DNA from: Allokutzneria sp. A3M-2-11 16
Lineage (GTDB): Bacteria; Actinomycetota; Actinomycetes; Mycobacteriales; Pseudonocardiaceae
Direction: 5' to 3'
DNA: 64,000 nucleotides
Assembly: GCF_024213555.1 (NCBI RefSeq)
Contig: NZ_JANAVO010000001.1
Span: 2,046,001 to 2,110,000, forward strand
Part shown: positions 42,040 to 56,371 of the stretch, piece by piece
Numbering within the stretch: position 1 is the first letter of the stretch
Layout of the letters: every line of letters begins with the position of its first letter
Made by a program: the position numbers and the translations under genes
The notes under the pieces: model-generated
Told to the model about the DNA's origin: nothing
Seen by the model: only the letters and a program-made list of their open reading frames with translations
Database searches by the model: none

Positions 42040-42714
42040 ATGACCGAGACAGCGATCGCCACCACCAAACTCGGCAGGCAGTACGGCGCCAAGTGGGCAC
42101 TTCGAGACTGCACCCTGCGGATTCCCGCGGGCCGGGTGGTCGGCGTCGTGGGCCCCGCGGGCTCTGGCAAGTCGACCCTGATGAACGTGATGGTCGGCCT
42201 GCTGCACCCGACCGAGGGTGAACTCGAACTGCTCGGCGAGCGCGTGGGGCCGACCAGCGTGCTGGAGCGGGTCGCGCACATCGCCAAGGAGGACGCGCTC
42301 TGCCGCGGCTTCAAGGTGGCCGACCTGCTCACCGCGGCGCGGCTGTTCAACGCGCGCTGGACGCAGCGGATCGCCGAGGACCGGCTGCGCGAGCGCGGGA
42401 TCGCCCTCGACAGCAAGGTCGGCGAGCTCTCCTGCAGCCAGCGGGCCCAGGTCGCGCTGACCGTCGCGCTGGCCACCACGCCGGAGCTGCTGATCCTGGA
42501 CGCGCCGGTGACGGGCCTGGACCCGTTGGCGCGCAAGGAAACCGTGTCCGCGCTGCGGGCCGCGCAGGCCGAGACCGGGTGCACCGTCGTCGTCTCCGCC
42601 CAGACGGTCACCGAGCTGGACGGGCTGTGCGACTACCTCGTCGTGCTGGACGAGGGCCGGGTGCTGATGGCCGGTGACGTCGACGACCTGGTGCTGACCG
42701 GCCCCGCCGCTTAG
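42040..42714 (+). CDS. Orphan ABC ATPase with altered catalytic motifs
   Basis: A 224-residue ABC ATPase of YtrB type (LDPLAR after the D-loop). Walker A is intact (GPAGSGKST, about 38-46). The signature is LSCSQ instead of LSGGQ. Walker B reads LLILDAP, with Ala in place of the catalytic Glu (codon GCG at about residue 155). The H-loop His is replaced by Gln (VVVSAQTV). No membrane permease lies next to it. It can probably bind ATP but hydrolyse poorly, so a regulatory role or decay is possible. Confidence 0.82.
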   Translation: MTETAIATTKLGRQYGAKWALRDCTLRIPAGRVVGVVGPAGSGKSTLMNVMVGLLHPTEGELELLGERVGPTSVLERVAHIAKEDALCRGFKVADLLTAARLFNARWTQRIAEDRLRERGIALDSKVGELSCSQRAQVALTVALATTPELLILDAPVTGLDPLARKETVSALRAAQAETGCTVVVSAQTVTELDGLCDYLVVLDEGRVLMAGDVDDLVLTGPAA

Positions 42715-42752
42715 ACGCTGTCCCGTAAGCCACCCAAGCGCCGCACACCAAG

Positions 42753-42758
42753 TAAACT
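42753..42758 (+). promoter_or_regulatory. -10 box of mini-ORF element 1
   Basis: TAAACT, six bases before GTG 42765. The same box-to-start spacing occurs in all three copies of the element. Confidence 0.5.
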
Positions 42759-42764
42759 CTGCTC

Positions 42765-42812
42765 GTGCACCTCATCCGCCTGCTCACCCCATCCGGGGCG
42801 GCCGCGGTCTAG
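42765..42812 (+). CDS. Leaderless mini-ORF, element B copy 1 (15 codons)
   Basis: GTG opens MHLIRLLTPSGAAAV and stops at TAG 42810. It has the same length and codon register as the copy at 47616-47663 (8 of 15 residues identical), preceded by TAAACT-N6 and followed five bases later by the conserved hairpin. The 351-base gap 42715-43065 contains only this element and GC-rich sequence. No family is known; it may be a peptide, a decoy ORF or a regulatory leader. Confidence 0.45.
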   Translation: MHLIRLLTPSGAAAV

Positions 42813-42817
42813 AGAAC

Positions 42818-42880
42818 CCCGTTTCGTACTCTTAACGGGAAAAAGAGCGCTCCCAAATCCCGTTAAGAGTACGAAACGGG
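42818..42880. repeat. Element B copy 1 hairpin
   Basis: 22-base arms beginning CCCGTTTCGTAC (42818-42839) and ending GTACGAAACGGG (42859-42880) are perfectly complementary, with a 19-base loop containing AGCGCT. The loop reads AAAAAGAGCGCTCCCAAAT. Homology with copy 2 extends on both sides (about 42725-42930). It lies between converging genes and is probably a bidirectional terminator. Confidence 0.85.
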
Positions 42881-43065
42881 TTTTGGGCTGCCCTGCTGAT
42901 GTTCTGGGCGGGCGAGCGCGGGGTGGGGTCGCGATCGCTACCGACCACTGACAGGACACCGCCTGGCCGCGTTTCGGGCGCATAGCGGGCGATCGGGCGC
43001 TGCTTGCACCCGCTATGCGTCCAAAAGGGTCCTGGGGCGGGGTTCCGGCGTGGGGCCGGGCGCGG

Positions 43066-45288
43066 TCAGGCCCGCCGTCGACGGACCGCGGTGAACACGC
43101 TGAAGCCGATGCCGAAGAGCAGGCCGATGCCCAGCAGCGGGATGCCGAGGCCCCATCCTGGCGGGAAGTAGCTCAGCCGCAGCGTGCCGTTGGCCGCCTG
43201 CGGGAGCTCGACCTGGATCAGCCCGGCCGGTCCCTGCCTCACCTCGACCGGCTTGCCGTCCACCTCGGCCTTCCAACCGGGCCAGGCCAGCATCGCGAAG
43301 GTCATCCGGCCGCCGCCGGAGTACTTCACCGACTCCCCGGTGAACCCGGTCGAGCGGTCCTCGCTGATCCGCACGCCCGGCGCGGCGTAGGACACCCGCC
43401 CGTCCGGCCAGTCGATCTTCGCGTTGCGGTGCAGCACGTTCACGATGTGCGTGGTCTGCCGGACCGACCAGCCCGCGGGGGGCTTCGCCGGGTCGAAGTC
43501 CGGAACGTAGTCGTTGAGGATGACCACGGTCTCCAGGCGCATCAGGTCGGCCAGCGTCTTGCCGCCGTTTCCCGGCTGCTTCTGCCACAACCGTTGGTAG
43601 GCAACGGGTTCCGTGGCGCCGTGGTACTCCATGTCCAGTTCCTCGGCGAAGGCGGTGAAGCCGATGCCGGTGTAGCTGTTCTGCGCCTTCACCCCGGCCA
43701 CGTGGTACATGTTGCCGAACAGCAGGTCCCGCCACGCGCCGTCCGGGCTGTAGCCGTGCCGTCCGATCGCCGGGTAGATGTCCGCGATCTGCAGGGTGTT
43801 CCCGGTGTAGCGGTCGGCGAAGCGCTTCTCCAGCTCGGCCACGTTGGTGGGGAAGAACCACGGCGTGATGTTGCCGTTGTGCGGCATCACCAGCACCTGC
43901 ATCAACAGCACCAGCGCGGTTCCGGTCACCAGCACCGGGGGCAGCAGCTTCGCGCGGTGCTTGAACACCACCCACACGGCCGCCGCGGTGCCCGCCGAGA
44001 CCAGGAGGAAGGCGGCGGCGTGCCACTCCACGTTCTGCGGCGTGGTCGCCCACGCCTGGTAGGTGCCGACGAAGATGATCGCGGCCGATCCGAGCGCCCT
44101 GCGCCGCCACTGGCTGGTGCGCAGGCCCACCGACAACGCGATCGCCACCAGCACGAGCACCGGCAGGAACACGTACTGGGTCAGCCGCGCGGGCCAGCGG
44201 AACAGCCACAGGTCCGACGGCGCGATCGCCATCAACAGGTAGATCGTGCCGAACAGGAACAGGCCGAAGCGCGTGCGCAGCCCGGCTCGCATCGCGCGGA
44301 AGGACAGCCACGGCGCGAGCGGCAGGATGAACCACGCCAGGTAGGTCATCGGGAACGTGGTGAACGTCGGGTCGAACATCTCGATGCGCGGCAGGTAGGT
44401 CGGCGAGGACATCGTGGCGAGATCGCCGATCCCCGGGACCATGAAGCCGTTGTTGAAGACCCCGGCGGGCTTGCGCCAGGTCACCGCGGCACCGGTGAGC
44501 AGCGGCAGGAACGCCACCAGGCCGGTCAGCCCGACCGAGCCACCGAGCATCACGATCTGCCAGAACCGCTTGATGTCCTTGATCAGCAAGCGTTCCACGC
44601 CGATCACCAGCAGCACCACGATCACGCCGAGCGCGCCGTAGGGGTTGCCGGTGGTCATCGCGAGCGCGCCGAAGAGGAACGGCACGATCGGGTTCAGCAG
44701 GCCGCGGGAGAACCGGCGCAGCGACCACCAGAAGTGCGTCAGGTAGGCGAACCCGATCAACCCGGCGATCCACGCCGAGGCGTCCACGTAGAGCGTGTAG
44801 CCCGAGACCGGCAGCGAGATCGCGACGATCGCCGCGGCGAACTCCTTCGCGCCGTACTCGCGGGCCAGGAAGTACACGCCGAGCGCGAGCACGATCAGGA
44901 ACTCGACCTTGACGATGGTCGCCGCGAGCGCCAGGTCGGGCAGCAGCGCCACCAGCACGTAGTTCAGCAGCGAAACCGGGTTCCACAGGCTGATCTGGGC
45001 CTCGCCCGCGAGGTTGCCGCCCATCCACATGTCCGGGCGCAGCACCGGCCAGTCCCCGGACAGCAGCTGCTTGCCGATCTCGTGCCAGTACGGCAGGAAG
45101 GCCGCGGCCGAATCGTCCCAGAAGTAGAAGATCGGGTTCTTGATCAGCGGGAACAGCGCGAGCAGGCCGACGACCGCGGCCACCACCAGCGGGGTGCGCA
45201 GGCCGCTCAGCCGCTCCGGCGGGTGCTGGCGGTGCTCCTGAGCGGGGGGAGGCGTGTCCGCGTCGCTGCGGGTCTCCGTCGCCGTCAC
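43066..45288 (-). CDS. YfhO-family membrane protein (GT-C-like), copy 1
   Basis: A 740-residue polytopic membrane protein: 12 or more helices to about residue 560, then an extracytoplasmic C-terminal domain and a last helix (near 700-725). The first outside loop carries FYFWDDSAAAFLPYWHEIG and GGNLAGEAQISLWNPVSLL, the acidic DD/E pattern of GT-C enzymes using polyprenyl-phosphate sugars. It is a paralogue of the gene at 57933-60167, with matching motifs throughout (for example LLFGNMYHVAGV). Divergent from a GT2 gene that could supply its donor. Confidence 0.82.
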   Translation of the reverse strand: MTATETRSDADTPPPAQEHRQHPPERLSGLRTPLVVAAVVGLLALFPLIKNPIFYFWDDSAAAFLPYWHEIGKQLLSGDWPVLRPDMWMGGNLAGEAQISLWNPVSLLNYVLVALLPDLALAATIVKVEFLIVLALGVYFLAREYGAKEFAAAIVAISLPVSGYTLYVDASAWIAGLIGFAYLTHFWWSLRRFSRGLLNPIVPFLFGALAMTTGNPYGALGVIVVLLVIGVERLLIKDIKRFWQIVMLGGSVGLTGLVAFLPLLTGAAVTWRKPAGVFNNGFMVPGIGDLATMSSPTYLPRIEMFDPTFTTFPMTYLAWFILPLAPWLSFRAMRAGLRTRFGLFLFGTIYLLMAIAPSDLWLFRWPARLTQYVFLPVLVLVAIALSVGLRTSQWRRRALGSAAIIFVGTYQAWATTPQNVEWHAAAFLLVSAGTAAAVWVVFKHRAKLLPPVLVTGTALVLLMQVLVMPHNGNITPWFFPTNVAELEKRFADRYTGNTLQIADIYPAIGRHGYSPDGAWRDLLFGNMYHVAGVKAQNSYTGIGFTAFAEELDMEYHGATEPVAYQRLWQKQPGNGGKTLADLMRLETVVILNDYVPDFDPAKPPAGWSVRQTTHIVNVLHRNAKIDWPDGRVSYAAPGVRISEDRSTGFTGESVKYSGGGRMTFAMLAWPGWKAEVDGKPVEVRQGPAGLIQVELPQAANGTLRLSYFPPGWGLGIPLLGIGLLFGIGFSVFTAVRRRRA

Positions 45289-45330
45289 GGGGGTCCTTCC
45301 TGGGGCTGCGCGTCGCGCAACCGGCTGCGT

Positions 45331-45493
45331 GGGCGTGTTTCACAGGTCCGTGTTCGCGATAGCCGGGCCGAGCCCGCCCCTGGCGGCGTCTCGGCGAAGG
45401 CCACGTACAACACCGGTACGCGTCCTCCCCCGAGTCTTGCCAGGAACGACCCCGATCCCGACTCTCATCGAACGAGACCTATGAAACACGCCC
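45331..45493. promoter_or_regulatory. Paired inverted 18-base motif in the YfhO/GT2 divergent promoter
   Basis: GGGCGTGTTTCACAGGTC (45331-45348) recurs in inverted orientation as GACCTATGAAACACGCCC (45476-45493), 17 of 18 positions matching. One copy lies 43 bases before the YfhO start and the other 128 bases before the GT2 start. This suggests a shared regulator for both genes. The rest of the 332-base gap (45289-45620) shows only a TAAGGT -10-like box near 45552. Confidence 0.5.
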
Positions 45494-45620
45494 GTGGATC
45501 GGGGCCGGGGCCCGTAGTGGGTCAGCTGCGGAAGGGCCCGTCGAGGCTCCGTGTAAGGTCTGGGCCGCCGTAGCCGGACTTTCACGTCCACCGGCGGCCA
45601 TATCGTGCCAGGGAGCTCCA

Positions 45621-46376
45621 GTGCCGACTTCAGGGACCACCATCTCGCTCAGCTACGTGGTGCCGGCGCACAACTGCGCCGCCATCATCGAAGCCACAGT
45701 ACGGGAGCTGGGTGAAAGACTCAGCGGTGGAAACGCCGAGATCCTGGTGGTGCAGAACGGTTCCACCGACGAGACGCCCGAGGTCCTCGCGCGCATCGCC
45801 GCGAACTGGTCGGTGCCCGGCGTCGAGTTCCGTTCGCTCACCAGTGACAAGGGTCTCGGCAACGCGCTCAAGCTCGGCCTGCTCTCCTCCCGCGGCGAGG
45901 TCGTCGTCACCACCGCGGACGACCTGCCGTTCGGCTTCGACGAGTACGAGGCCGCGCTCAAGGTCGACCTGAACCGCTTCCCCGTGGTGGTCGGCTCCAA
46001 GGCGCACCCGCAGTCCGAGGTCGGCCGCGGCGTCGTCCGCTGGGTGGCCACCACCGGGTTCCTGGTGCTGCGCACCCTGGTGCTGGGCATGCGCACCCGC
46101 GACCCGCAGGGCACCTTCGTGCTCAACGGCGACTGGGTGCGCGAGATCGCGCCGCGCCTGGAGGAGAAGGGTTTCCTGCTCACCACCGAGCTGATCTACA
46201 TCGCCGAGCGGCAGGGCGTGCGGACGGTCGAGGTGCCGGTGCGGCTGCGCGCCTCGCACGGCGAGCACGGGACCCGGATCAAGCTCGCCGACGTCTGGTA
46301 CATGGGTGTCGGCCTGCTCAGCGTGCGCCGCAAGCACCGCAGGACCGCGCGCCTGTCCGCGACAACCAGAGTCTGA
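45621..46376 (+). CDS. GT2-family glycosyltransferase, single domain (DPM1-like)
   Basis: A 251-residue cytoplasmic-face glycosyltransferase without membrane helices. The GT-A nucleotide-binding fold starts LSYVVPAHNCAA; the donor motif is VVVTTADDLPFGFDEYE, with a further VQNGSTDET. It probably makes a polyprenyl-phosphate sugar. GTG 45621 has GGGAG upstream. It is divergent from YfhO copy 1, and six bases before LhgO. Confidence 0.88.
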   Translation: MPTSGTTISLSYVVPAHNCAAIIEATVRELGERLSGGNAEILVVQNGSTDETPEVLARIAANWSVPGVEFRSLTSDKGLGNALKLGLLSSRGEVVVTTADDLPFGFDEYEAALKVDLNRFPVVVGSKAHPQSEVGRGVVRWVATTGFLVLRTLVLGMRTRDPQGTFVLNGDWVREIAPRLEEKGFLLTTELIYIAERQGVRTVEVPVRLRASHGEHGTRIKLADVWYMGVGLLSVRRKHRRTARLSATTRV

Positions 46377-46381
46377 CGCCA

Positions 46382-47563
46382 GTGCACGTCGCGATCGTCG
46401 GGGGCGGCATCGTCGGGCTCGCGGTGGCGCACGAGCTGGCGACGGTCGGCGGGCACCAGGTCACGGTGCTGGAGAAGGAATCCGACTGGGCCACCCACCA
46501 GACCGGGCACAACAGCGGCGTGATCCACGCCGGGCTGTACTACAAGCCGGGCAGCCACAAGGCGAAGATGTGCGTCGCGGGCAACGCCTCGATGGTCGAG
46601 TTCGCCCGCCGCAACGGCGTTGAGGTCAAGGTCTGCGGCAAGCTCGTGGTGGCGACCTCGCCCGCCGAGCTGCCGCACCTGCGGGTGCTGGAGGAGCGCG
46701 CGGTCGCCAACGGCGTTCCCGCCGACTTCCTGGACGCCTCCGACGCGATGGAGATCGAGCCGGAAGCCTTCTGCGTGGCCGCGTTGCACGTCCGGAGCAC
46801 GGGCGTGATCGACTACCGCGAGGTGTGCAACGCGCTGGTGGCGCGGGTCCGCGCCCGCGACGCCGATCTCCGCACCGGTACGACGGTTCGCGGTATTTCG
46901 TCCACTGTGGACGGTGTGGTGCTCAGCACGACGGACGGCGAGCTCAAGGCCGATTTCCTGGTCAACTGCGCGGGACTGCACAGCGACCGGGTGGCCAGGA
47001 TGGCCGGTTTGCGCCCCACCGCTCGGATCGTGCCCTTCCGCGGTGAGTACTACGAGCTCCGCGCCGAGCGCCGCGATCTGGTGCGCGGGCTGATCTACCC
47101 GGTCCCGGACCCGCGCTTCCCGTTCCTCGGCGTGCACCTGACGCGCATGCTCGACGGCACGGTGCACGCGGGCCCCAACGCGGTGCTCGCGATGCGCCGC
47201 GAGGGGTACCGCCGCCGCGACGTGACCCCCCGCGACCTGGCGGGCACGCTCGCCTTCCCGGGTTTCTGGCGGATGGCCCGCAAGCACGTGCGCACCGGCA
47301 TCGACGAGATGGCGCGCTCGGTCTCCCGCAAGCGGTTCGCGGCCAGCCTCGCGCGCCTGGTCCCGGCGATCACCGCGGACGACCTCGTCCCCGCGGAGTC
47401 CGGCGTCCGGGCCCAGGCCCTCAACCCGGACGGCAGCCTCGTCGACGACTTCCTGATCGAGACGGCACAGCACCAGGTGCACGTGCTCAACGCGCCTTCC
47501 CCGGCGGCGACGAGCGCGCTGGAGATCGCCCGGCACATCGCCACCCACGTTCCCGCCGACTAG
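46382..47563 (+). CDS. lhgO: L-2-hydroxyglutarate oxidase/dehydrogenase
   Basis: A 393-residue FAD enzyme oxidising L-2-hydroxyglutarate to 2-oxoglutarate. The FAD motif GGGIVGLAVAHEL opens the protein; the LhgO marks TGHNSGVIHAGLYYKPGSHKAKMC, YREVCNALV and VNCAGLHSDRVA are clear. It probably recycles a side product of central metabolism. It follows the GT2 gene by five bases but is functionally unrelated. It is followed by element B copy 2. Confidence 0.93.
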   Translation: MHVAIVGGGIVGLAVAHELATVGGHQVTVLEKESDWATHQTGHNSGVIHAGLYYKPGSHKAKMCVAGNASMVEFARRNGVEVKVCGKLVVATSPAELPHLRVLEERAVANGVPADFLDASDAMEIEPEAFCVAALHVRSTGVIDYREVCNALVARVRARDADLRTGTTVRGISSTVDGVVLSTTDGELKADFLVNCAGLHSDRVARMAGLRPTARIVPFRGEYYELRAERRDLVRGLIYPVPDPRFPFLGVHLTRMLDGTVHAGPNAVLAMRREGYRRRDVTPRDLAGTLAFPGFWRMARKHVRTGIDEMARSVSRKRFAASLARLVPAITADDLVPAESGVRAQALNPDGSLVDDFLIETAQHQVHVLNAPSPAATSALEIARHIATHVPAD

Positions 47564-47603
47564 GCCGTGTCCTGCGAGGCCCGCCCGCACTCCGCGCACC
47601 ACG

Positions 47604-47609
47604 TAAACT
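47604..47609 (+). promoter_or_regulatory. -10 box of mini-ORF element 2
   Basis: TAAACT, six bases before ATG 47616. Confidence 0.5.
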
Positions 47610-47615
47610 GAGCCC

Positions 47616-47663
47616 ATGCACTCCACGCGCCCGGCCACCCCATCCCCCGCGCGCGTGGTCTAG
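47616..47663 (+). CDS. Leaderless mini-ORF, element B copy 2 (15 codons)
   Basis: ATG opens MHSTRPATPSPARVV and stops at TAG 47661. Register, length and the TAAACT-N6 spacing equal copy 1, and the hairpin starts six bases after the stop. It sits in the convergent gap between LhgO and the MFS gene. Confidence 0.45.
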   Translation: MHSTRPATPSPARVV

Positions 47664-47668
47664 AGAAC

Positions 47669-47731
47669 CCCGTTTCGTACTCATAACGGGAAAAAGAGCG
47701 CTCCCAAATCCCGGCAAGAGTACGAAACGGG
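47669..47731. repeat. Element B copy 2 hairpin
   Basis: The arms begin CCCGTTTCGTACTCATAACG (47669) and CCCGGCAAGAGTACGAAACG (47710); the loop (47691-47709) is identical to copy 1. The arms have a few mismatches near the loop. Homology with copy 1 continues to about 47790 (GGGCTGC...TGATGTT...GGGGCGG). Confidence 0.85.
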
Positions 47732-47815
47732 ATTTTGGGCTGCGGTGGTGATGTTTGGGGCGGCGAGCACGGGGGGCGTCACGGTTGCTGGTGACGACGT
47801 GCAGGACGCGGCCGA

Positions 47816-49195
47816 CTAGGTCCTGGCGAGCACGGTGCCGCTCGCCGCTGCCAGCACCAGCAGCCCGGCGAGCAGGCCGAGGGTGACCGAGATGGCGTGC
47901 GCTCCGGGCGCCAAACCCAGGTAGACGCTGCCGAACGTCGCGACACCGACGACCTGGCTGAGCTGCAACGTCGTGGTCAGCAGCCCGCTGGCGTCGGCGG
48001 CCTCGGCGGGCGGCACGTGGCGCAGGGAGTTGCCGAGCAGCGGGCTGAAACCGATGCCGATCGCCGCGCCCCAGACCGCCAGCGCGCCGATCACCGCGAT
48101 GCCGCCGTGCCCTCCGGAAGCGAAGCCCGCCGCCACGACCAGGCAGGCGATCGCGCTGATCACCAGGCCGACCGGGGTCAGCCAGCGGTGCGCCCGCTTC
48201 GGCAGGCGCTGCCAGTAGAAACTGCCGAGGCCGAATGTGAGGCCGAAGGCGGTGAAGGTCAGCGCGGCGCGCAGCGGGGTGTCGCCGAGCCCGACCTGGA
48301 GGTGCAACGCCGCGCTGAACAGGAACGCGCCATAGGCCACGATCGCCAGCGCCAGGGTCATCAGTCCGGAGCGCACTCCGGGCACCCGCAGCACGCCGAG
48401 GTTCAGCAGCGGGTCGCGCACGCGGCGCTCGACGCCGACGAAGATCACCAGCAGCAGCGCGCCCAGCGCCATCACCGGGAACGTCCACCCTGGCCAGCCC
48501 TGTTCGTGCCCAAGCACCAGCGGCGTCACGACGAGCAGCACCCCGGGCAGCGAGAGGGCGAGCCCGGCCAGGTCCAGCCTGCGCGTGCCGCTGGGCCGGT
48601 CGACCGGTGCGACGCGGGCGACCAGCGCGAACACCGCGAGGCCGATCGGCACGTTGATCAGGAACACCGGCCGCCAGCCCAGGCCGAACAGGTCTGCCTC
48701 GATCAGCACGCCGCCGACCAGCATCCCGGCCACGCCGCCCGTGGCGAGGACCGCGGAGTACGCCGACAGCGCCTTCGCCCGCGCCGCCCCGGTGAACCGC
48801 AGCTGGATGACGCTCATGATCTGCGGCATCATCAGCGCCGCCCCGGCGCCCTGGGCGAACCGCGCGATGACCAACGTCATGGCGGTCGGGGCTAGCCCGC
48901 ACAGCAGCGAGGTGGCGGTGAAGATCAGCACACCGGTCCGGAAAAGCCTGCGCGTGCCATAAAGGTCGCCGAGCCGCGCTCCGGTGATCAACAGCGTCGC
49001 GTAGCTCACCGTGTAGCCCGCGACGACGAGTTGGAGCTCGCTGCCGGACGCGGTCAGGTCGGCGCGGATGCTGGGCAGGGCGACGTTGACGATCGTGACG
49101 TCGAGCAGCGCCATGAACTGGCCGAGCAACAGTGTGCCGAGCAGCAGCCAGCTGCGGCGGTCGGTGCGTGCCGGTGGCTCGCTGACAGTGGTCAT
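47816..49195 (-). CDS. MFS drug transporter, DHA2 family
   Basis: A 459-residue exporter with about 14 helices. Helix 1 is GQFMALLDVTIVNVALPSI (motif D1 of the DHA2 family); the loop GARLGDLYGTRRLF and motif C AVLATGGVAGMLVGGV follow. It is controlled most likely by the divergent XRE regulator via the palindrome 49247-49263. ATG 49195 is chosen over GTG 49204 because GGTGG sits upstream. The substrate is unknown. Confidence 0.9.
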   Translation of the reverse strand: MTTVSEPPARTDRRSWLLLGTLLLGQFMALLDVTIVNVALPSIRADLTASGSELQLVVAGYTVSYATLLITGARLGDLYGTRRLFRTGVLIFTATSLLCGLAPTAMTLVIARFAQGAGAALMMPQIMSVIQLRFTGAARAKALSAYSAVLATGGVAGMLVGGVLIEADLFGLGWRPVFLINVPIGLAVFALVARVAPVDRPSGTRRLDLAGLALSLPGVLLVVTPLVLGHEQGWPGWTFPVMALGALLLVIFVGVERRVRDPLLNLGVLRVPGVRSGLMTLALAIVAYGAFLFSAALHLQVGLGDTPLRAALTFTAFGLTFGLGSFYWQRLPKRAHRWLTPVGLVISAIACLVVAAGFASGGHGGIAVIGALAVWGAAIGIGFSPLLGNSLRHVPPAEAADASGLLTTTLQLSQVVGVATFGSVYLGLAPGAHAISVTLGLLAGLLVLAAASGTVLART

Positions 49196-49246
49196 GGCAA
49201 CCACCGTGCGGCCCGGAGCGACGCGTTACCGAGAGCTCATCGATGC

Positions 49247-49263
49247 TGGTAGTGCCACTACCA
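49247..49263 (+). promoter_or_regulatory. Palindromic operator between MFS and XRE regulator
   Basis: TGGTAGTG-C-CACTACCA is a perfect 17-base palindrome in the 105-base divergent gap. The location fits the XRE/MmyB regulator binding both promoters. Confidence 0.65.
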
Positions 49264-49300
49264 CCGTCGCGATGTCGGTCCCTGGTGCCACACTCCGCCC

Positions 49301-50131
49301 GTGACCACCACCATGGGGAGACGGCGCACGGCGCTCGCCGAGTTCCTCAAGGCGCGCCGGGCGCGGATCGACCCCGCCGACGTCGGCCTGGAACCGGGCG
49401 GGCGGCGCCGGACCGCGGGGCTGCGCCGCGAGGAGGTCGCGCTGCTCGCCGGGGTCGGCCTCACCTGGTACACGTGGCTGGAGCAGGGACGGCCGATCAA
49501 CGCCAGCTACCAGGTGCTCGACGCCATCGCCCGCACGCTGCTGCTGGACGCGCCCGCGCGCTGGCACCTCTACCACCTCGCCGAGGCGACACCGGCCCGG
49601 TTCGCCACACCGGCCGCCGAGGTCCCGGAGTCGGTGCACGTCGTGCTGCGCTCGCTGGACCCGCTGCCCGCAGTCCTGCTCAACGCGCGGTTCGACATCC
49701 TCGCGTCCAACGCCGCGCACGAGGAGATGTTCTTCGGCTGGCACAGCCTGCCGTGCGTGCACAAGAACCTGCTGTGGTGCTGCGTCACCGAGCCGCTCGC
49801 GCGCGAACAGCTGGAGAACTACGACCAGGTGCTGCCGTACTTCGTCGGGCGGTTGCGCGCGGAGTACGCGCGGCACGTCGACGACCCGGAATGGGAGGAG
49901 GACATCCGCAGGCTCAGCGAGCTGAGCGAGGAGTTCCGCGAGCTGTGGGCGCGGCACGACGTCGCCGCTCCCACGCCGACCTGCCTGCGGTTCCGGCACC
50001 GCGCGGCCGGCACGCTGAGCTTCGTCAACCACGAGCTGGTCGTCGAGGGCGCGGGTGATCTCCGGATCAGGGTCTACACCCCCGCCGACGACCTCACCTG
50101 GCAGCGCCTCCCCGCCACGCGCACCGGCTAG
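49301..50131 (+). CDS. XRE regulator with MmyB-like ligand domain
   Basis: A 276-residue regulator. The helix-turn-helix is at about 10-70 (GLRREEVALLAGVGLTWYTWLEQGR); the MmyB-like ligand-binding domain is at about 105-270 (LNARFDILASNAAHEEMF, FRHRAAGTLSFVNHELVV). This class usually controls an adjacent transporter or dehydrogenase; here it is divergent from an MFS pump. GTG 49301 lies six bases after CACACT, so it may be leaderless. Its end overlaps the converging small zinc-ribbon gene by four bases. Confidence 0.9.
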   Translation: MTTTMGRRRTALAEFLKARRARIDPADVGLEPGGRRRTAGLRREEVALLAGVGLTWYTWLEQGRPINASYQVLDAIARTLLLDAPARWHLYHLAEATPARFATPAAEVPESVHVVLRSLDPLPAVLLNARFDILASNAAHEEMFFGWHSLPCVHKNLLWCCVTEPLAREQLENYDQVLPYFVGRLRAEYARHVDDPEWEEDIRRLSELSEEFRELWARHDVAAPTPTCLRFRHRAAGTLSFVNHELVVEGAGDLRIRVYTPADDLTWQRLPATRTG

Positions 50132-50340
50132 ACCGGCGCGACCAGGCCCGGGAAGCGGCCCCGGCCCTCGCAGGAGCGGCAGGGGCGGACCTCGTCCAGG
50201 GTGCTCGGGCGCCCCTCGGTGATGCCGCAGCGGCCGACGCTGCGCTCTCGCATGCCCAGGCAGCCGGGACAGAGCGTGTGGGCCGTGGTCGCTCGATTGG
50301 GGGTACTCACGAGAGTCGAAGGTACCGACTCGTCGCTCAC
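50128..50340 (-). CDS. Small zinc-ribbon-like protein coupled to the FAD/GcvT enzyme
   Basis: A 70-residue protein with Cys pairs CPGC, GRCG and CRSCEGRGRF, resembling a zinc ribbon (the last is DnaJ-like). GTG 50340 overlaps the stop of the FAD/GcvT gene (GTGA). It may assist that enzyme, as the small zinc subunit does in heterotetrameric sarcosine oxidase, but sequence similarity to that subunit is not evident. Confidence 0.6.
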   Translation of the reverse strand: MSDESVPSTLVSTPNRATTAHTLCPGCLGMRERSVGRCGITEGRPSTLDEVRPCRSCEGRGRFPGLVAPV

Positions 50341-52784
50341 TGTCGAACGCGTTCCCCCCGGGGATCGAAGAGCGGCTGCTTGGAGACGACGGCCGGTACC
50401 CAGGTGCCGAACAGTTCGACCTCGGCGCGGGTGCCCGGCTTGGCCAGCTCGACCGGCAGGTACGCGTAGGCGATCGACGCGCCGACCGTGTAGCCGTAGC
50501 CACCGGAGGTGACCCTGGTCAGCACCTTTCCGTCGACCCGGACCGGTTCGCTGCCGAGCACCACGTGCCGCGGGTCGTCGAGCACCAGGCACGCCAGCTT
50601 CCTGGTCAGCCCGCGCTCCCTGGCGGCGATCAGGGCGTCCCGGCCGAGGAACGGCTTGTCGAGCTTCACGCAGAAACCGAGCCCTGCTTCGTACGGGTGA
50701 ACCTCGGGGGAGAGGTCGGAGCCCCAGAGCCGGTAGCCCTTCTCCAGGCGGAGGCTGTCGATCGCCCGGTAACCGCCCGCGACCAGGCCGTGCTCCTCCC
50801 CGGCCGCCCACAGGGCCCGCCACAACGCGGCGCCGTACTCGGCCGAGCAGTACAGCTCCCAGCCGAGTTCGCCGACGAAGGTCACCCGCAGCGCGCGCAC
50901 CGGAACGTCGCCGACCGTGGTCTCCTGCGCGGTCAGGTACGGGAACGCCTCGTTGCCCAGGTCCGCCGGGGTCAGCGGGGCGAGGATGTCGCGGGCGCGC
51001 GGCCCCCACAGCGCGAAGCACGCGAACTGCCCGGTGACGTCGGCGATCCGGACGTCGGGGCCCGCGTGCTTGCGCAGCCAGCCCATGTCGTGCGAGCCGA
51101 ACGCGGTGCCGGTGACGATCATGAACTCGTCCTCGGCGAGGCGGGTGACCGTGAAGTCGCACTCGATCCCACCGCGGGCGTTCAGCGCCTGGGTGTAGGT
51201 CACCGCGCCGATCTCGCGCGCAACATCGTTGGCGCACAACCAGTTCAGCAGTTCCGCGGCGCCGCGCCCGCTGACCGAGATCTTGGCGAAGGACGACTCG
51301 TCGAACAGCCCGGCGCGCTCGCGAGTGGCGATGTGCTCGGCGCCGATCGCCGGGGACCAGTTGCGCCCCGCCCAGTCGTGCGGCCGCAACGAGGCGTCTC
51401 CACCGTCCACATTGGACTCATACTGGTTCACCCGCTCCCAGCCGGACTTCTCGCCGAAGGTCGCGCCGTGCTCGACGTGCCAGGAGTACGCGGGGGACAC
51501 CCGCAGCGGTCGCCCGGCGGAGCGCTCGCGGTGCGGGTACGGGATGTCGTAGTAGGTCTCGTAGTTCTCCACGACGCGCTTGCGGGTGTAGGCGGGGGAG
51601 CCGTAGTGCCTGCCGAAGCGGCGGATGTCCATGTGCGAGACGTCCAGGCCGGGATCACCGCTGACGATCCACTCCGCCATCACCTTGCCGACGCCGCCCG
51701 CGCCCGCGATGCCGTGCGCGCAGAAGCCCGCGGCCACGAAGAACCCGCCGACCTCGGTCTCGCCAAGGCAGAACTCGTTGTCCGGGGTGAACGCCTCCGG
51801 GCCGTTGATCATGCGGCGGACGCCGATCGTGCCCATGACCGGGACGCGCGCCTCGGCGTTCGCGCCGATCTCGGTGAACCGGTCCCAGTCCTCGGAGAGC
51901 AGTTTCCCGTTGAAGTCGGCCGGAATCGCCTCGAACGCGGCGCCGCTCTGCGCCCACGGCCGGGAGTCGCGCTCGTAGCCGCCCATCAGCAGCCCGTCGA
52001 CCTCCTCGCGCCAGTACACGAGGTTGTCCGGATCGCGCAGCGTCGGCAGGTGCGTGCCGTCGCGCGGCCGCACCGGATCGGTGACCAGGTACTGGTGCGA
52101 CATCGGCACGATCGGCACCCGGACCCCGGCCATCCGCCCGATCTCCGCGGCGAACATGCCACCGCAGTTCACCACGATCTCCGCCTCGATCTCGCCGGAG
52201 TCGGTGCGCACCCGGTGCACTCGCCCGTCCCGCAGGTCGATGCCGAGCACCCTGGTCTTGGTGAAGATCCGCACGCCGCCCGCCCGCGCGCCCGCCGCCA
52301 GCGAGTACGTCAGCTGCGACGGGTCCACGTAGCCGTCGGTCGGCAGGTACGAGCCGCCGAGCACGCCGTCGGTGCTCATCAGCGGGAACAGCTCCTTGGC
52401 CTCGGCCGCGGAGATCTCCCGCAGCGGCAGGTCGAAGGTGCGCGCCCAGCCGATCTGGCGGCGGGTCTCCTGCAACCGCTCCGGCGTGCAGGCCAGCCGG
52501 ATGCCGCCGCAGGGCACCCAGCCGACCGGGTGCTCGGTCGCCTCCAGCTTCGCGTACAGCTCAGCCGAATAGGTGTTCATCCTGGTCAGCGTGGGGTCCG
52601 CGCGCAGCTGGCCGACCAGCCCGGCGGAGTGGAAGGTGGAGCCGCTGGTCAGCTCGGCGCGGTCGAGCAGCACGACATCGCGTTCGCCCAGCTCGGCGAG
52701 GTGGTAGGCGATGCTCGTGCCGCCGACGCCACCGCCGATCACGACGACGCGGGCGCGGGCGGGGAGCGTTCGGTCCGTGGCCAC
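50337..52784 (-). CDS. FAD-dependent oxidoreductase with GcvT domains (dimethylglycine/sarcosine dehydrogenase type)
   Basis: An 815-residue two-part enzyme. The FAD-dependent DAO domain (about 1-375) starts RVVVIGGGVGGTSIAYHL and includes LTSGSTFHSAGLVG with a conserved His for flavin contact. A linker (380-440) and aminomethyltransferase folate-binding GcvT domain (about 445-800) follow. It should demethylate an N-methylglycine (dimethylglycine or sarcosine) and pass the carbon to tetrahydrofolate. GTG 52784 matches the family start. It is divergent from a choline-kinase-like gene, hinting at choline/betaine breakdown. Confidence 0.88.
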   Translation of the reverse strand: MATDRTLPARARVVVIGGGVGGTSIAYHLAELGERDVVLLDRAELTSGSTFHSAGLVGQLRADPTLTRMNTYSAELYAKLEATEHPVGWVPCGGIRLACTPERLQETRRQIGWARTFDLPLREISAAEAKELFPLMSTDGVLGGSYLPTDGYVDPSQLTYSLAAGARAGGVRIFTKTRVLGIDLRDGRVHRVRTDSGEIEAEIVVNCGGMFAAEIGRMAGVRVPIVPMSHQYLVTDPVRPRDGTHLPTLRDPDNLVYWREEVDGLLMGGYERDSRPWAQSGAAFEAIPADFNGKLLSEDWDRFTEIGANAEARVPVMGTIGVRRMINGPEAFTPDNEFCLGETEVGGFFVAAGFCAHGIAGAGGVGKVMAEWIVSGDPGLDVSHMDIRRFGRHYGSPAYTRKRVVENYETYYDIPYPHRERSAGRPLRVSPAYSWHVEHGATFGEKSGWERVNQYESNVDGGDASLRPHDWAGRNWSPAIGAEHIATRERAGLFDESSFAKISVSGRGAAELLNWLCANDVAREIGAVTYTQALNARGGIECDFTVTRLAEDEFMIVTGTAFGSHDMGWLRKHAGPDVRIADVTGQFACFALWGPRARDILAPLTPADLGNEAFPYLTAQETTVGDVPVRALRVTFVGELGWELYCSAEYGAALWRALWAAGEEHGLVAGGYRAIDSLRLEKGYRLWGSDLSPEVHPYEAGLGFCVKLDKPFLGRDALIAARERGLTRKLACLVLDDPRHVVLGSEPVRVDGKVLTRVTSGGYGYTVGASIAYAYLPVELAKPGTRAEVELFGTWVPAVVSKQPLFDPRGERVRQ

Positions 52785-52823
52785 GCCCCATTCGTACCGG
52801 GCCGCCGCCCCCGGCGGAACGCC

Positions 52824-52853
52824 TTGACGCCAGAAGATCACCCGCACGACACT
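52824..52853 (+). promoter_or_regulatory. Promoter of the choline-kinase-like gene
   Basis: TTGACG (52824-52829), 18 bases, then GACACT (52848-52853), which lies six bases before ATG 52860. It is consistent with a leaderless transcript. Confidence 0.45.
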
Positions 52854-52859
52854 CCCGCG

Positions 52860-53780
52860 ATGGACATCTCCGACGTGCTCGCGCTGGTTCCGGGGTGGGC
52901 CGGGAAGCCGGTGCACCGGCTTCCCCTGGTCGGCGGGCTGAGCCACCAGGTCGGCCTGGTGCGGGTGGATGGCGCGGACTTCATCGTGCGGGTGCTCGAC
53001 CCGGCGGTGTCCGAGGCCGGGCTCGGCGTGCCGCTGGAGCAGGAGATCGCCAACACCGTGCGCGCCGCGGAGTCCGGCGTGGGCGCGGCCGTGCTGCACG
53101 TGCTCGAAGAGCCGCCGACGCTGGTCCTGGAGTACCTGCCGGGCACCACGTTGTGCGCGGCCGACGTGCGCGATCCCGCGCGCATCACCAAGATCGCCGC
53201 CGCCGTCCGCGCGCTGCACACCGGGACCCGGCCGTTCGTCAACGACATGGACATCTTCGACAAGCTCGCCCAGTTGCTCGGGTTGTGCGACGAACACGGG
53301 CTGACCGTGCCGGAGGACTACCGCGAGCACCTGCCGCTGGTCGAGGACGTCCGGGCGGCGCTGTCCGCGTCACCGCTGCCGAAAGCGCCGTGCCACAACG
53401 ACCTGCTCGCGGAGAACTTCATCGAGACCGGCGACCGCGTACGCATCGTCGACTACCAGCTGAGCGGGATGAACGACCCCGGGTTCGAGCTGGGCAACAT
53501 CGCGGCCGAGTCGCAGCTGACGCCGGAGCTGACCGAACTGCTGGCCCGTTCGTACTTCGGCGCGGACTTCGGAGCGGGGGCGTTGGCGCGGGTGCGGCTG
53601 TTCTCGATCATGTCCAACTTCACCTGGACGCTGTGGTTCTGCATCCACCACGGGCTGCTCGCCAGGCCGGGCAGCGATTTCGACTACTGGGGCGAGGCCG
53701 CCGCGAAGTGGGGCCGGGCAAAGGCCGCATTGACCGGTAACGAGCTGGGCCGGTTGCTTGACCTGGCCCGCCGAGGGTGA
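52860..53780 (+). CDS. Choline-kinase/aminoglycoside-phosphotransferase-like protein
   Basis: A 306-residue protein kinase-fold phosphotransferase. The N-lobe has GGLSHQVGLVRVDGADFIVRV; the catalytic loop is PCHNDLLAENFIE (Asp as base); the metal motif is VDYQLSGMNDPGFELGN (DxxxxGxxxxxLGN), typical of choline/ethanolamine kinases. It probably phosphorylates choline or a related amino alcohol. It is divergent from the sarcosine/dimethylglycine dehydrogenase-like gene. The stop overlaps the DUF3558 start. Confidence 0.87.
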   Translation: MDISDVLALVPGWAGKPVHRLPLVGGLSHQVGLVRVDGADFIVRVLDPAVSEAGLGVPLEQEIANTVRAAESGVGAAVLHVLEEPPTLVLEYLPGTTLCAADVRDPARITKIAAAVRALHTGTRPFVNDMDIFDKLAQLLGLCDEHGLTVPEDYREHLPLVEDVRAALSASPLPKAPCHNDLLAENFIETGDRVRIVDYQLSGMNDPGFELGNIAAESQLTPELTELLARSYFGADFGAGALARVRLFSIMSNFTWTLWFCIHHGLLARPGSDFDYWGEAAAKWGRAKAALTGNELGRLLDLARRG

Positions 53781-54364
53781 TGGACACTCGTCGGGTGAGG
53801 CGTACATCCCTGATCGCTGCCCTGCTCGTCATCGCGTCCGTCGCCGCGGGCTGTGCCCAGCCGGTGCGCGGTGAGGCGCTGGCCGGGCCGACGCCGAGCA
53901 CCACCCCCACCCGCGCGCCGGGCTCCGCGCCGTTCGACCCCTGCAAGATCGTGACCTGGGCGGACTTCCCGCTGGAGGTGCGTCCGCAGGTGGACATCGC
54001 GCCGCGGCACCGGCCGCCGAACCCCCAGGCGCCCGACGAGGTGTTCGCCGACGGGTGCTCCTTCGACAACAACGAGCTCATCCCGTTCAAACCGTTCATG
54101 GCGCTGGTCATCTGGGGCTCGATCACCAAGATCAGGGTGGATCCGAAGAACCCAGCGGACAAGCCAATGATGTACGGCAACCGGCGCGGAGTGCAGACCG
54201 CGGACGTCGACGAGAAGGGCCAGAAGGGCTGCGTCACCCGCTTCACCCTGGACTACGGCCAGGTCGCCGGGATCTCGCTGACCAACGGCCGGTTCCCCGA
54301 AGTCGACCCGTGCAAGGTCGTCGACGGCCTCGCCGAGAAGATCGTCCAGCGCCTCGATTCCTGA
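53780..54364 (+). CDS. DUF3558 lipoprotein, second copy
   Basis: A 194-residue predicted lipoprotein with signal RRTSLIAALLVIASV and lipobox AAGC. Family marks are FDPCKIVTWADFPLEV, DGCSFDNNEL and CKVVDGLAEKIV. Paralogous to 31454-32041 but not beside ESX-like genes. The ATG at 53780 overlaps the kinase stop (TGATG); a GTG three bases earlier is an alternative. No function is assigned. Confidence 0.82.
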   Translation: MDTRRVRRTSLIAALLVIASVAAGCAQPVRGEALAGPTPSTTPTRAPGSAPFDPCKIVTWADFPLEVRPQVDIAPRHRPPNPQAPDEVFADGCSFDNNELIPFKPFMALVIWGSITKIRVDPKNPADKPMMYGNRRGVQTADVDEKGQKGCVTRFTLDYGQVAGISLTNGRFPEVDPCKVVDGLAEKIVQRLDS

Positions 54365-54371
54365 CACCGCC

Positions 54372-54377
54372 TACACT
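54372..54377 (+). promoter_or_regulatory. -10 box of mini-ORF element 3
   Basis: TACACT, six bases before ATG 54384. The same spacing as in copies 1 and 2. Confidence 0.45.
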
Positions 54378-54383
54378 CATTCC

Positions 54384-54416
54384 ATGCCCACCACCCCGTG
54401 TGCCCCCTCATCCTGA
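54384..54416 (+). pseudogene. Mini-ORF, element B copy 3, stop-interrupted
   Basis: ATG opens MPTTPCAPSS and stops at TGA in codon 11. The register beyond it still aligns with the other copies (Ala-x-Val-Val at codons 12-15), and the TAG stop is lost. This marks it as a decayed member of the same element, unless the short form is the active one. Confidence 0.4.
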
Positions 54417-54437
54417 GCCGGTGTGGTCCAAACCAAT

Positions 54438-54500
54438 CCCGTTTCGTACTCATAACGGGATTTGGGAGCGCTCTCTTTCCTTTTAAGAGTACGAAACGGG
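54438..54500. repeat. Element B copy 3 hairpin, loop inverted
   Basis: The arms begin CCCGTTTCGTACTCATAACG (54438) and end AAGAGTACGAAACGGG (54500). The 19-base loop (54460-54478, ATTTGGGAGCGCTCTCTTT) is the reverse complement of the loop in copies 1 and 2, while the left flank with its mini-ORF keeps the same orientation. Confidence 0.85.
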
Positions 54501-54511
54501 AAAAGACGGCG

Positions 54512-56371
54512 TTAGGTGGCGAGGGGGGTCCAGGGGGAGAAGGGGTGTGCGGGGGAGGGTTGGTGCGTCGTCATGAGGCGGCCGTCCTCGCCGAGCGCGA
54601 ACAGGGTGATCTTGTTGTCGCGCAGGGAGACCGCTGGGCTGTCGGCGATTCGGCCGGGTAGTGGGGTCCAAGGGCCGCCGGTGGAGACCGAGACGCCCGC
54701 CGCGCGATCGCGGACGAAGATCGACAACTGGCCGCCGGTCCACGCCAGGCCGGGGGCGCCGAGGCCACCGGGGGCGGGTAGCAGGACCGGGGCGCTTCCC
54801 GGCCGGATGACCGCCACGGCCGCGGAGTCCGCCACGCGGTAGGCCAGCGCGGTCTGGTCGCCATCGGTCGTGGTCGCCGCCAGCGGCCCGCTCGGAGCCG
54901 GAGCGCGGAAGGCACGATCCGGCCGCGGAGCCTCGCCGCCACGTCGGGACCAGCGCAAAACCGTCTGCCGGGTCGGGGCGAACAGGTCCCAGCCCGTGCC
55001 GTTCGCCGCGACCGCGATGCCGTCCTGCACGTCGGAGCCGCCGAGATCGGCCCAGCGCGTCGGCCAGGTCCGGCCGTCCGGCGCGGTCAGCATGCTCACC
55101 CCGCCGCCGCCGTTGCGCACGAACACCGACAGCTCGCCGTTCACCACGGCCGCGACCGGCGCGCCGCCTTCGAACTCGCGCGCACCGCCCCGGTTGGGGT
55201 TGCCGAGGTTCCTCCAACCGGACTCCGACAGCACGAGAACGTCGTTGGTGTCCTGTCGCCGTGCGAAAACCTGTTGTCCCGCAACGGAAATCGTCGGCGC
55301 GAGCGGCCCTCCGGGATCAGCGGTCGTCACCGGTCCGGTCCAGGCGGAGTCGGTCTCGCTCCACCGCACGAGCCGACCCGCGAGCACGGCGAACGCGCTC
55401 CGCCGCCCCGTCGCGTCGGTGCCCACCCAGTTCACCCCACGCGGCCAGCGGTAGTACGTGCGCCGGGCCCACGCGTCGTAGGGGCCGCCCATGCTGACCT
55501 GGTCGTCGTGCGGGACGTACGCGGAGAAGGTGTCCAGCTTCTCCCGCTGCTCCTCGGGCGTGATGTTGATCGGCGCCTCGTCCACGTTGTAGTCGCGGTA
55601 GTGCATCGACACGAAGCGCGGACCGGTTCCTGAACGCTGGTGGAGGTCGGCGGCTTCGCGTGCGAACAGCGCGGCCATCACGTGGTCGGGGTGGTCGTGG
55701 AAGGGGACCCAGTTCCCCGTGTAGCGGCGGTCGGGCGCGGTGTCCTGCAACCGGAGCACCGTGGGCCGGAAGTGCGCGTAGAGCCCGACCAACGTGTCAA
55801 TCACCGACTGCCGGTCGTAGAGGCAGTTGACCCCGTCGATGCCGCCCGTGGGTTTGAGAGCGCGCACGTGCACGAAGTTCGCGCGGTCCTGCCACAGGCG
55901 CACGAGCGCGCGCGGTCCACCGAGCGCCTTCGTGTCCGCGTTCTCCGGCAGGTTCACGAACACCAACTGAACGCTCGGAAGTGGTTTAAGCGTGTAAAGC
56001 TCCACGCGGTGGTCGTGGTCCACCACGAGCGGTTCCGCGCGCCATTCATCGCGAACGCCCGCCATGTGCGCGTAGGCCGCGCGAGTCCCCGCCTGTCGCT
56101 TCGCGGCGTAACCGGCCGTATCCGCAACGTTGGCCTCGCCTGCGGTCAAGTACACAGTCGTGACCGGCTGGCCAACTTTTATGGCAGTGCTGACGTCAGG
56201 GTTCATGAAGAGGATGTCGTCGTCCTGGTGCGCGACAACCTGCAGGTGACGAACTTCAGGGGTGGAGCTCGGGGCAGTAGCGGGCGGTGGCGCGGTGACC
56301 AGCTCCGTACAGGAGAACAAGGCCGCCGCGAGCACGACCGCGAGAACCACCGAGACCCCACTGCGACGCAT
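54512..56371 (-). CDS. PIG-L (LmbE-like) deacetylase lipoprotein with propeller-like repeats
   Basis: A 619-residue paralogue of the gene at 25122-26981. The signal ends in a lipobox-like LFSC (Cys21), so it is probably membrane-anchored outside the cell. The PIG-L domain (about 42-260) has VVAHQDDDILFMNPD, where HPDD has become HQDD (His48, Gln49, Asp50), plus FHDHPDHVMAA for zinc. Residues about 300-619 hold Trp/Gly repeats (RWADLGGSDVQDG) as in the other copy. Divergent from the GT2-GtrA-YfhO operon across 135 bases, so it may deacetylate a sugar added by that system. Confidence 0.85.
   Translation of the reverse strand: MRRSGVSVVLAVVLAAALFSCTELVTAPPPATAPSSTPEVRHLQVVAHQDDDILFMNPDVSTAIKVGQPVTTVYLTAGEANVADTAGYAAKRQAGTRAAYAHMAGVRDEWRAEPLVVDHDHRVELYTLKPLPSVQLVFVNLPENADTKALGGPRALVRLWQDRANFVHVRALKPTGGIDGVNCLYDRQSVIDTLVGLYAHFRPTVLRLQDTAPDRRYTGNWVPFHDHPDHVMAALFAREAADLHQRSGTGPRFVSMHYRDYNVDEAPINITPEEQREKLDTFSAYVPHDDQVSMGGPYDAWARRTYYRWPRGVNWVGTDATGRRSAFAVLAGRLVRWSETDSAWTGPVTTADPGGPLAPTISVAGQQVFARRQDTNDVLVLSESGWRNLGNPNRGGAREFEGGAPVAAVVNGELSVFVRNGGGGVSMLTAPDGRTWPTRWADLGGSDVQDGIAVAANGTGWDLFAPTRQTVLRWSRRGGEAPRPDRAFRAPAPSGPLAATTTDGDQTALAYRVADSAAVAVIRPGSAPVLLPAPGGLGAPGLAWTGGQLSIFVRDRAAGVSVSTGGPWTPLPGRIADSPAVSLRDNKITLFALGEDGRLMTTHQPSPAHPFSPWTPLAT

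Follow-up and report, generated by a model that had tools for sequence, protein, structure and literature searches.

A palindromic Allokutzneria repeat, probably mobile, with a one-sided -10 box and start codon beside its hairpin

Results

The window analysed here is a stretch of 64,000 nucleotides (nt) from Allokutzneria sp. A3M-2-11 16 (Pseudonocardiaceae; NCBI RefSeq assembly GCF_024213555.1, contig NZ_JANAVO010000001.1, positions 2,046,001 to 2,110,000 of the forward strand), and it holds three copies of a short element that an earlier note on this DNA had described. Each copy was reread at its coordinates, and the layout was as the note had it: a TA[AC]ACT box, six bases, an ATG or GTG, a short frame and a hairpin starting CCCGTTTCGTAC. 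Converging genes were seen on the two sides of every copy, also as reported. The features, including the predicted mini open reading frames (mini-ORFs), are as follows.

Copy 1
42711..42714, no strand: TTAG at the left edge, containing the TAG stop of the upstream gene
42715..42729, + strand: left terminal repeat, diverged
42753..42758, + strand: -10 box TAAACT, six nt before the GTG at 42765
42765..42812, + strand: predicted leaderless mini-ORF of 15 codons (MHLIRLLTPSGAAAV) plus TAG (42810-42812)
42818..42880, no strand: hairpin, 22-bp arms without mismatch
42948..42962, - strand: right terminal repeat, diverged
Copy 2
47560..47563, no strand: left flanking CTAG, containing the upstream gene's TAG stop; the congener G001 has a CTAG at the same stop and no insert
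47564..47578, + strand: left terminal inverted repeat GCCGTGTCCTGCGAG
47604..47609, + strand: -10 box TAAACT, six nt before the ATG at 47616
47616..47663, + strand: predicted leaderless mini-ORF of 15 codons (MHSTRPATPSPARVV) plus TAG (47661-47663)
47669..47731, no strand: hairpin, arms CCCGTTTCGTACTC/GAGTACGAAACGGG, loop containing GAGCGCTC
47798..47812, - strand: right terminal inverted repeat
47816..47819, no strand: right flanking CTAG, containing the TAG stop of the converging gene
Copy 3
54372..54377, + strand: -10 box TACACT, 7 bp past the upstream gene's TGA and six nt before the ATG at 54384
54384..54416, + strand: mini-ORF of 10 codons (MPTTPCAPSS) plus TGA at codon 11 (54414-54416)
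54438..54500, no strand: hairpin, loop reversed in orientation (GGGAGCGCTCTC)

The palindrome core is 63 bp in the window copies, and its arms of 13-14 bp are almost invariant. The 22-base arms ascribed to all three copies hold for copy 1, where they are perfect; the outer parts of the arms of copies 2 and 3 pair without a break for about 14 bp. Six arm matches with at most two mismatches were found in the window against 1.22 expected, a number reached by none of 100 shuffles, and the predicted stability of the hairpins was high (z -6.9 to -9.1 for three 71-nt stretches of the window copies).

The earlier note had proposed a search of the whole genome and of relatives, and the genus sample searched comprised the window's own genome (G000, 8.81 Mb) and two congeners (G001 and G002). 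The 13-base arm with at most one mismatch occurs 274 times forward and 265 times in reverse in G000, compared with 1 and 0 for the reversed pattern. Exact-arm inverted pairs number 256 in G000 (247 long-spaced, 31-61 bp; 9 short-spaced, 14-30 bp), 52 in G001 (44 long, 8 short) and 1 in G002 (0 long, 1 short), indicating that the size of the repeat population varies widely within one actinobacterial genus. Where an exact arm had a partner at the standard spacing, that partner was free of mismatches in 301 of 302 places, a figure that counts most elements from both strands and leaves aside 61 more exact arms without a partner at that spacing. Exact arms are almost always paired; the examined stretches held four unpaired ones, three of them distinct. 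Outside the genus, where the search covered only the short spacing and the single-arm pattern, the short-spaced pair was found in none of 97 relatives, and a single-arm match occurred once each in two of them (G014 and G093). A scan of named genomes, from which the window's own records may have been missing, returned at least 20 stretches, all of those among the matches listed being from Allokutzneria sp. NRRL B-24872. A phage, plasmid or virus origin was set aside, as the 252-bp copy 2 was unmatched in plasmids and phages and the arm pair had no match in the viral contigs searched.

We examined both flanks of 163 long copies (136 from G000, 27 from G001), a set enriched for the promoter module because part of it was found via flank patterns or similarity to copies 1 and 2. 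A TANNNT hexamer lay 66-71 bp outside the hairpin on one side only in 116 copies and on both sides in none. ATG or GTG (RTG) followed the box after 6-7 nt in 109 of these 116, scored with a script favouring the hexamer with RTG where several fit, and in 97 of 104 in a smaller first set scored without that preference. The earlier note had named many genome copies lacking the -10/start spacing or reading frame as a finding that would speak against it, and in a less selected sample (53 long copies from contigs C1-C10, tiles and the window, the C33 tiles having been chosen between known copies) this was so for part of the family: a -10 box was present in 32 of the 53 and absent from 21, and RTG stood at 6-7 nt in 29 of the 32, where chance would give about 4%. 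Enrichment of TANNNT was confined to the 6-bp windows spanning 62-73 bp from long hairpins (16 and 91 of 292 flanks; 0-4 of about 291 elsewhere). The lone related copy in G002 keeps TAAACT, six bases, GTG and a 15-codon frame to TAG beside decayed arms. In a diverged subfamily, where the surrounding bases are nearly random, the C that follows RTG is also conspicuous (RTG itself served as a filter there, 19 of 21 passing). Of the 89 module copies for which genes were called, 13 have a -10 box whose first three bases are the stop codon of the upstream gene. In mycobacteria, leaderless translation is reported to have an ATG or GTG at the 5' end as its necessary and sufficient condition (PMC4633059), and we infer by analogy that the same rule may apply in Allokutzneria. 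The fixed -10-to-start geometry claimed earlier is thus recovered in both G000 and G001 and in the decayed G002 copy; as far as geometry goes, the reading as a leaderless mini-gene is supported.

The copies prefer convergent gene ends. Among sampled long copies of G000 with gene calls on both sides, made with our own simple caller, 30 of 42 lay between convergent genes, 10 between tandem and 2 between divergent ones; a larger set of 115 gave 69, 40 and 6, with 5 further copies unclassed. The background was 63 convergent among 439 gaps taken from large loci and 60 bp or longer, some of these gaps themselves containing copies.

Matching gene pairs for all three window copies were located in G001 and G002, and the copies were absent at three of three sites in both. 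At the site of copy 2, the gap between the matched genes is 23 bp in G001, which has CTAG at the stop, and 273 bp in G000, where 252 bp with inverted ends lie between CTAG 47560-47563 and CTAG 47816-47819. The copy 3 site measures 64 bp in G001 and 48 bp in G002 compared with about 205 bp in G000 between matched ends, and the copy 1 site 111 bp in G001 vs 387 bp in G000 and 68 bp in G002 vs 358 bp in G000, the sisters having no hairpin. Across the six sister-species stretches the best arm match had 4 to 6 mismatches, and TANACT was absent. The simplest reading of the empty sites is insertion in the G000 line, the alternative being two losses. Copies 1 and 2 belong to a G000 subfamily with inverted ends near GCCNTGTCCTGCAAG; this end pattern with at most two mismatches occurs in 95 places against 47 for a reversed control. 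In this subfamily, which resembles miniature inverted-repeat transposable elements (MITEs; n=56), a loose end test is passed on both sides by 25 members, 11 of which have YTAR next to both ends. Terminal repeats were not seen in the diverged subfamily, which has little homology upstream of the -10 box, or in G001.

We therefore favour, at a probability of about 0.7, a non-autonomous mobile repeat of Allokutzneria, similar to REPINs, Correia elements or MITEs, that probably makes a leaderless mini-mRNA. The earlier note had offered three possibilities, a small mobile element, a peptide gene or a regulatory RNA; the first gains from the 256 exact-arm copies, from copy numbers that differ strongly between congeners, from the three sites empty in both sisters and from the inverted ends of copy 2 between CTAGs.

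Several observations weigh against mobility or against the promoter. Copy 3 has no terminal repeats, and the copy 2 site in G002 holds about 600 bp of unrelated DNA. The loose end test (at most three mismatches) is uninformative, as 24 of 72 control sides also pass. No -35/-10 pair was found within 42500-55000, and the absent -35 box joins the 21 of 53 less selected copies without a -10 box. A search of the genome for PF13340 gave two matches, neither near these ends, other transposase families not being searched; an insertion sequence of this family as the parent was set aside for want of matching ends at the two matches. The genes in six intervals between close copies looked ordinary by eye, with no autonomous partner. 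The examined loci of 3 kb or more contained no end pair 350-3500 bp apart. Finally, six sites are occupied by the hairpin in both G000 and G001.

L071/L041, L064/L094, L146/L121, L081/L129, L075/L084: shared sites of G000/G001, both flanks matching
L078/L039: shared site, one flank matching (contig end); also occupied in G002 (L031)

Part of the family is therefore old and retained. At L146/L121 each species has its own subfamily type, so that independent insertion is possible there, and because exact arms were the search key, the conservation of arms at shared sites is partly a matter of data selection. L063/L029 and L073/L111 share a neighbourhood at different positions and stand outside the count. 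At L081 (=L040)/L129 and L075 (=L044)/L084, the hairpin is short in G001, where its loop is unrelated, and has the long GAGCGCTC loop in G000, as though the interior had been exchanged.

The shared sites, whose loops differ between the species, also bear on a rival explanation in which the host selects the palindrome as a bidirectional transcription end or insulator, or as a protein-binding site, the promoter and mini-ORF being secondary and copies being gained by gene conversion or drift. Arms this close to perfect point to selection by the host and not to mobile DNA in decay, and the convergent bias and the strand that is C-rich as it approaches the hairpin from either side agree with such a role. 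Against it stand the 256, 52 and 1 copies across three congeners, the window sites empty in the sisters, the inverted ends at CTAG-like sites in one subfamily and the lack of a T tract, and we consider it unlikely. A scan covering loops of 3-8 found no T-tailed terminator in 42500-55000, and to that extent the earlier view that the element is not a plain terminator stands.

Outside the arms, the inner eight bases of the hairpin are variable, and pairing among them was no better than after swapping partners (697 pairs observed vs 708.5 +/- 9.6 in 115 G000 copies; 124 vs 126.7 +/- 5.0 in 22 G001 copies). As the arms are near-invariant and the inner bases vary without covariation, the arms are kept as sequence and not just as a helix. 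Most long loops contain GAGCGCTC, and other loops were seen in 17 short copies inspected. One hairpin loop, TTGGGAGCGCTCCCAA (e.g. L015 1501-1561), presumably resembles a LacI-type (CebR) operator.

A multicopy regulatory RNA, with the fold as its product, would account for the very stable predicted hairpins and for the long imperfect hairpins into which the whole element, C-rich in its left flanks and G-rich in its right flanks, is predicted to fold. A conserved outer stem was dropped when, in each of four classes, swapped flanks paired at least as well as a copy's own, and the inner stem was dropped as conserved RNA for the lack of covariation given above; a known RNA family was likewise set aside, the window having no Rfam match at the gathering threshold. 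The arms never vary and are uninformative for or against an RNA fold. This option of the earlier note is accordingly very improbable.

The remaining option, that each copy is a real peptide gene with a functional product of about 15 residues, we regard as likewise very improbable. In its favour are the RTG in 109 of 116 copies and the frame length: among the 83 RTG copies whose frame stops near the hairpin, 77 have frames of 45 nt, three of 42 nt and three of 46 nt. No such stop was found in 26 of the 109. Variability per codon position was 0.73/1.04/0.70 bits in 54 distinct G000 frames, highest at position 2, and 0.47/0.40/0.36 bits in nine G001 frames, highest at position 1; with the third-position excess missing from both, the amino acids are not conserved as in a functional peptide, and a conserved peptide was rejected on this basis. 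By coding score, frame 0 was best in 22 of 29 diverged copies, but in just 18/36, 9/17 and 5/15 of the other classes, and because the copies are related, these and the frame counts are not independent. Three of six length-changed copies remain in frame and three do not, so that frame retention is no proof of translation. The family is thus a caution against annotating such frames as small protein genes.

Other repeats were noted along the way. About 100 bp from copy 1, window positions 42976-43023 hold a further inverted repeat, GCGCATAGCGGG ... CCCGCTATGCG, in which CATAGCGGG matches the inner arm of the short hairpin class. A second palindromic family has the same GTGTCCTGCAAG ends, partly at CTAG sites, and a different interior, GTCTTCAAGTACCCCCAACCCCC (L255/L290 from 1501, L257/L316, L268). 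Other gene-end hairpins lie upstream of 1502 in L044 and downstream of 5200 in L069, one having a GGGGAGCGCTCTCC loop with different arms and one TTTGCGATACAAAGT/ACTTTGTATCGCAAA. In G000, no CTAGAGA-type copy was listed for contig C11 at about 0.98-2.09 Mb, and the small contigs (C1-C10, C13) hold many.

Discussion

Copy number, arm invariance, polarity, -10/RTG geometry, empty sites and convergent bias were all observed directly in the genomes, and the mobile-repeat reading is meant to account for them. The core of the element would be an interrupted palindrome, to which many long copies add, on one side, a putative sigma-A-type -10 box and an ATG or GTG 6-7 nt on. Should the promoter fire and the RTG be used, the predicted transcript would begin on its own start codon, be translated for about 15 codons and then enter the hairpin, which may end, process or insulate transcripts between converging genes. 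We infer that the family spread by transposition. One G000 subfamily of similar copies, probably young, would be a MITE of about 250 bp with ends near GCCNTGTCCTGCAAG and CTAG-like targets, which in the GC-rich host genome are often stop codons; the diverged subfamily starts at or just past the upstream gene's stop, whose TAA or TAG sometimes doubles as the start of the -10 box.

A tentative extension, possible but rather doubtful, is that the leaderless start is itself the conserved cargo, giving more than 100 dispersed mini-mRNAs that begin with a start codon at +1 and encode no conserved peptide. Since the frames mostly stop about 11 nt before the invariant palindrome, translation itself rather than its product might be what counts; a ribosome that stalls at the base of the hairpin, for instance, could set transcript ends between converging genes or help the element to spread. 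With more than 100 copies of one promoter-RTG-hairpin cassette at gene ends, the genus offers a natural experiment, in which it becomes testable whether converging transcripts can be given standard ends by a mobile repeat, and whether leaderless translation can be conserved when its peptide is not.

Comparison with known systems

Seen as a mobile repeat, the family was compared with known systems as these are presented in excerpts of the cited papers. REPINs are inverted pairs of repetitive extragenic palindromic (REP) sequences mobilised by RAYT transposases, and the Allokutzneria repeat resembles them in its two inverted conserved arms, short and highly variable spacer and hundreds of copies (PMC8049555). 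REP sequences have a GTAG or CGTC tag at one end (PMC3733652), whereas the Allokutzneria arms and their edges, read by eye, have neither; moreover, the Allokutzneria repeat adds a polar -10/RTG module, and one subfamily has MITE-like ends at CTAG. For the associated RAYT tyrosine transposase, an HUH-type motif had no matches in the stretches examined, the whole genome not being searched for it. With the tag missing and no transposase found in these searches, we do not file the family as REPINs. Integron attC sites, DNA-uptake sequences and parS were further candidates, dismissed by eye.

Correia repeat enclosed elements of Neisseria are likewise small, mobile and palindromic and often sit at TA targets, and their Snyder promoter, with its -10 within the first six bases, is by analogy the nearest precedent for the putative promoter in the excerpted literature (PMC2649163). 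By contrast, the Allokutzneria promoter would face inwards to the element's hairpin, and a start codon lies where transcription is expected to begin; the arms and the host are different, and the quoted Correia ends also differ in a comparison made by eye only.

Bacterial MITEs derived from insertion sequences have terminal inverted repeats and no transposase, are mostly intergenic and in some cases carry ORFs (PMC10969869). Terminal inverted repeats were found in one G000 subfamily, including copies 1 and 2, and copy 2 shows both a target-site duplication (CTAG on both sides in G000) and an empty site (the 23-bp gap with CTAG in G001). A leaderless start geometry is not mentioned for MITEs in the excerpt of that source. 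Mycobacterial leaderless small ORFs are similar as many short unannotated ORFs; as excerpted, they are described at transcript 5' ends and not as a dispersed repeat (PMC4633059).

The polar cassette, in which a -10 box, a start codon on the predicted first base, a short frame and a near-invariant palindrome follow one another, looks new, the literature searched, as far as its excerpts go, holding no description of it. By analogy, the family appears to behave like REPINs and Correia elements, as a palindromic repeat of small size that is non-autonomous and settles at the ends of genes, and it newly combines the features of these systems.

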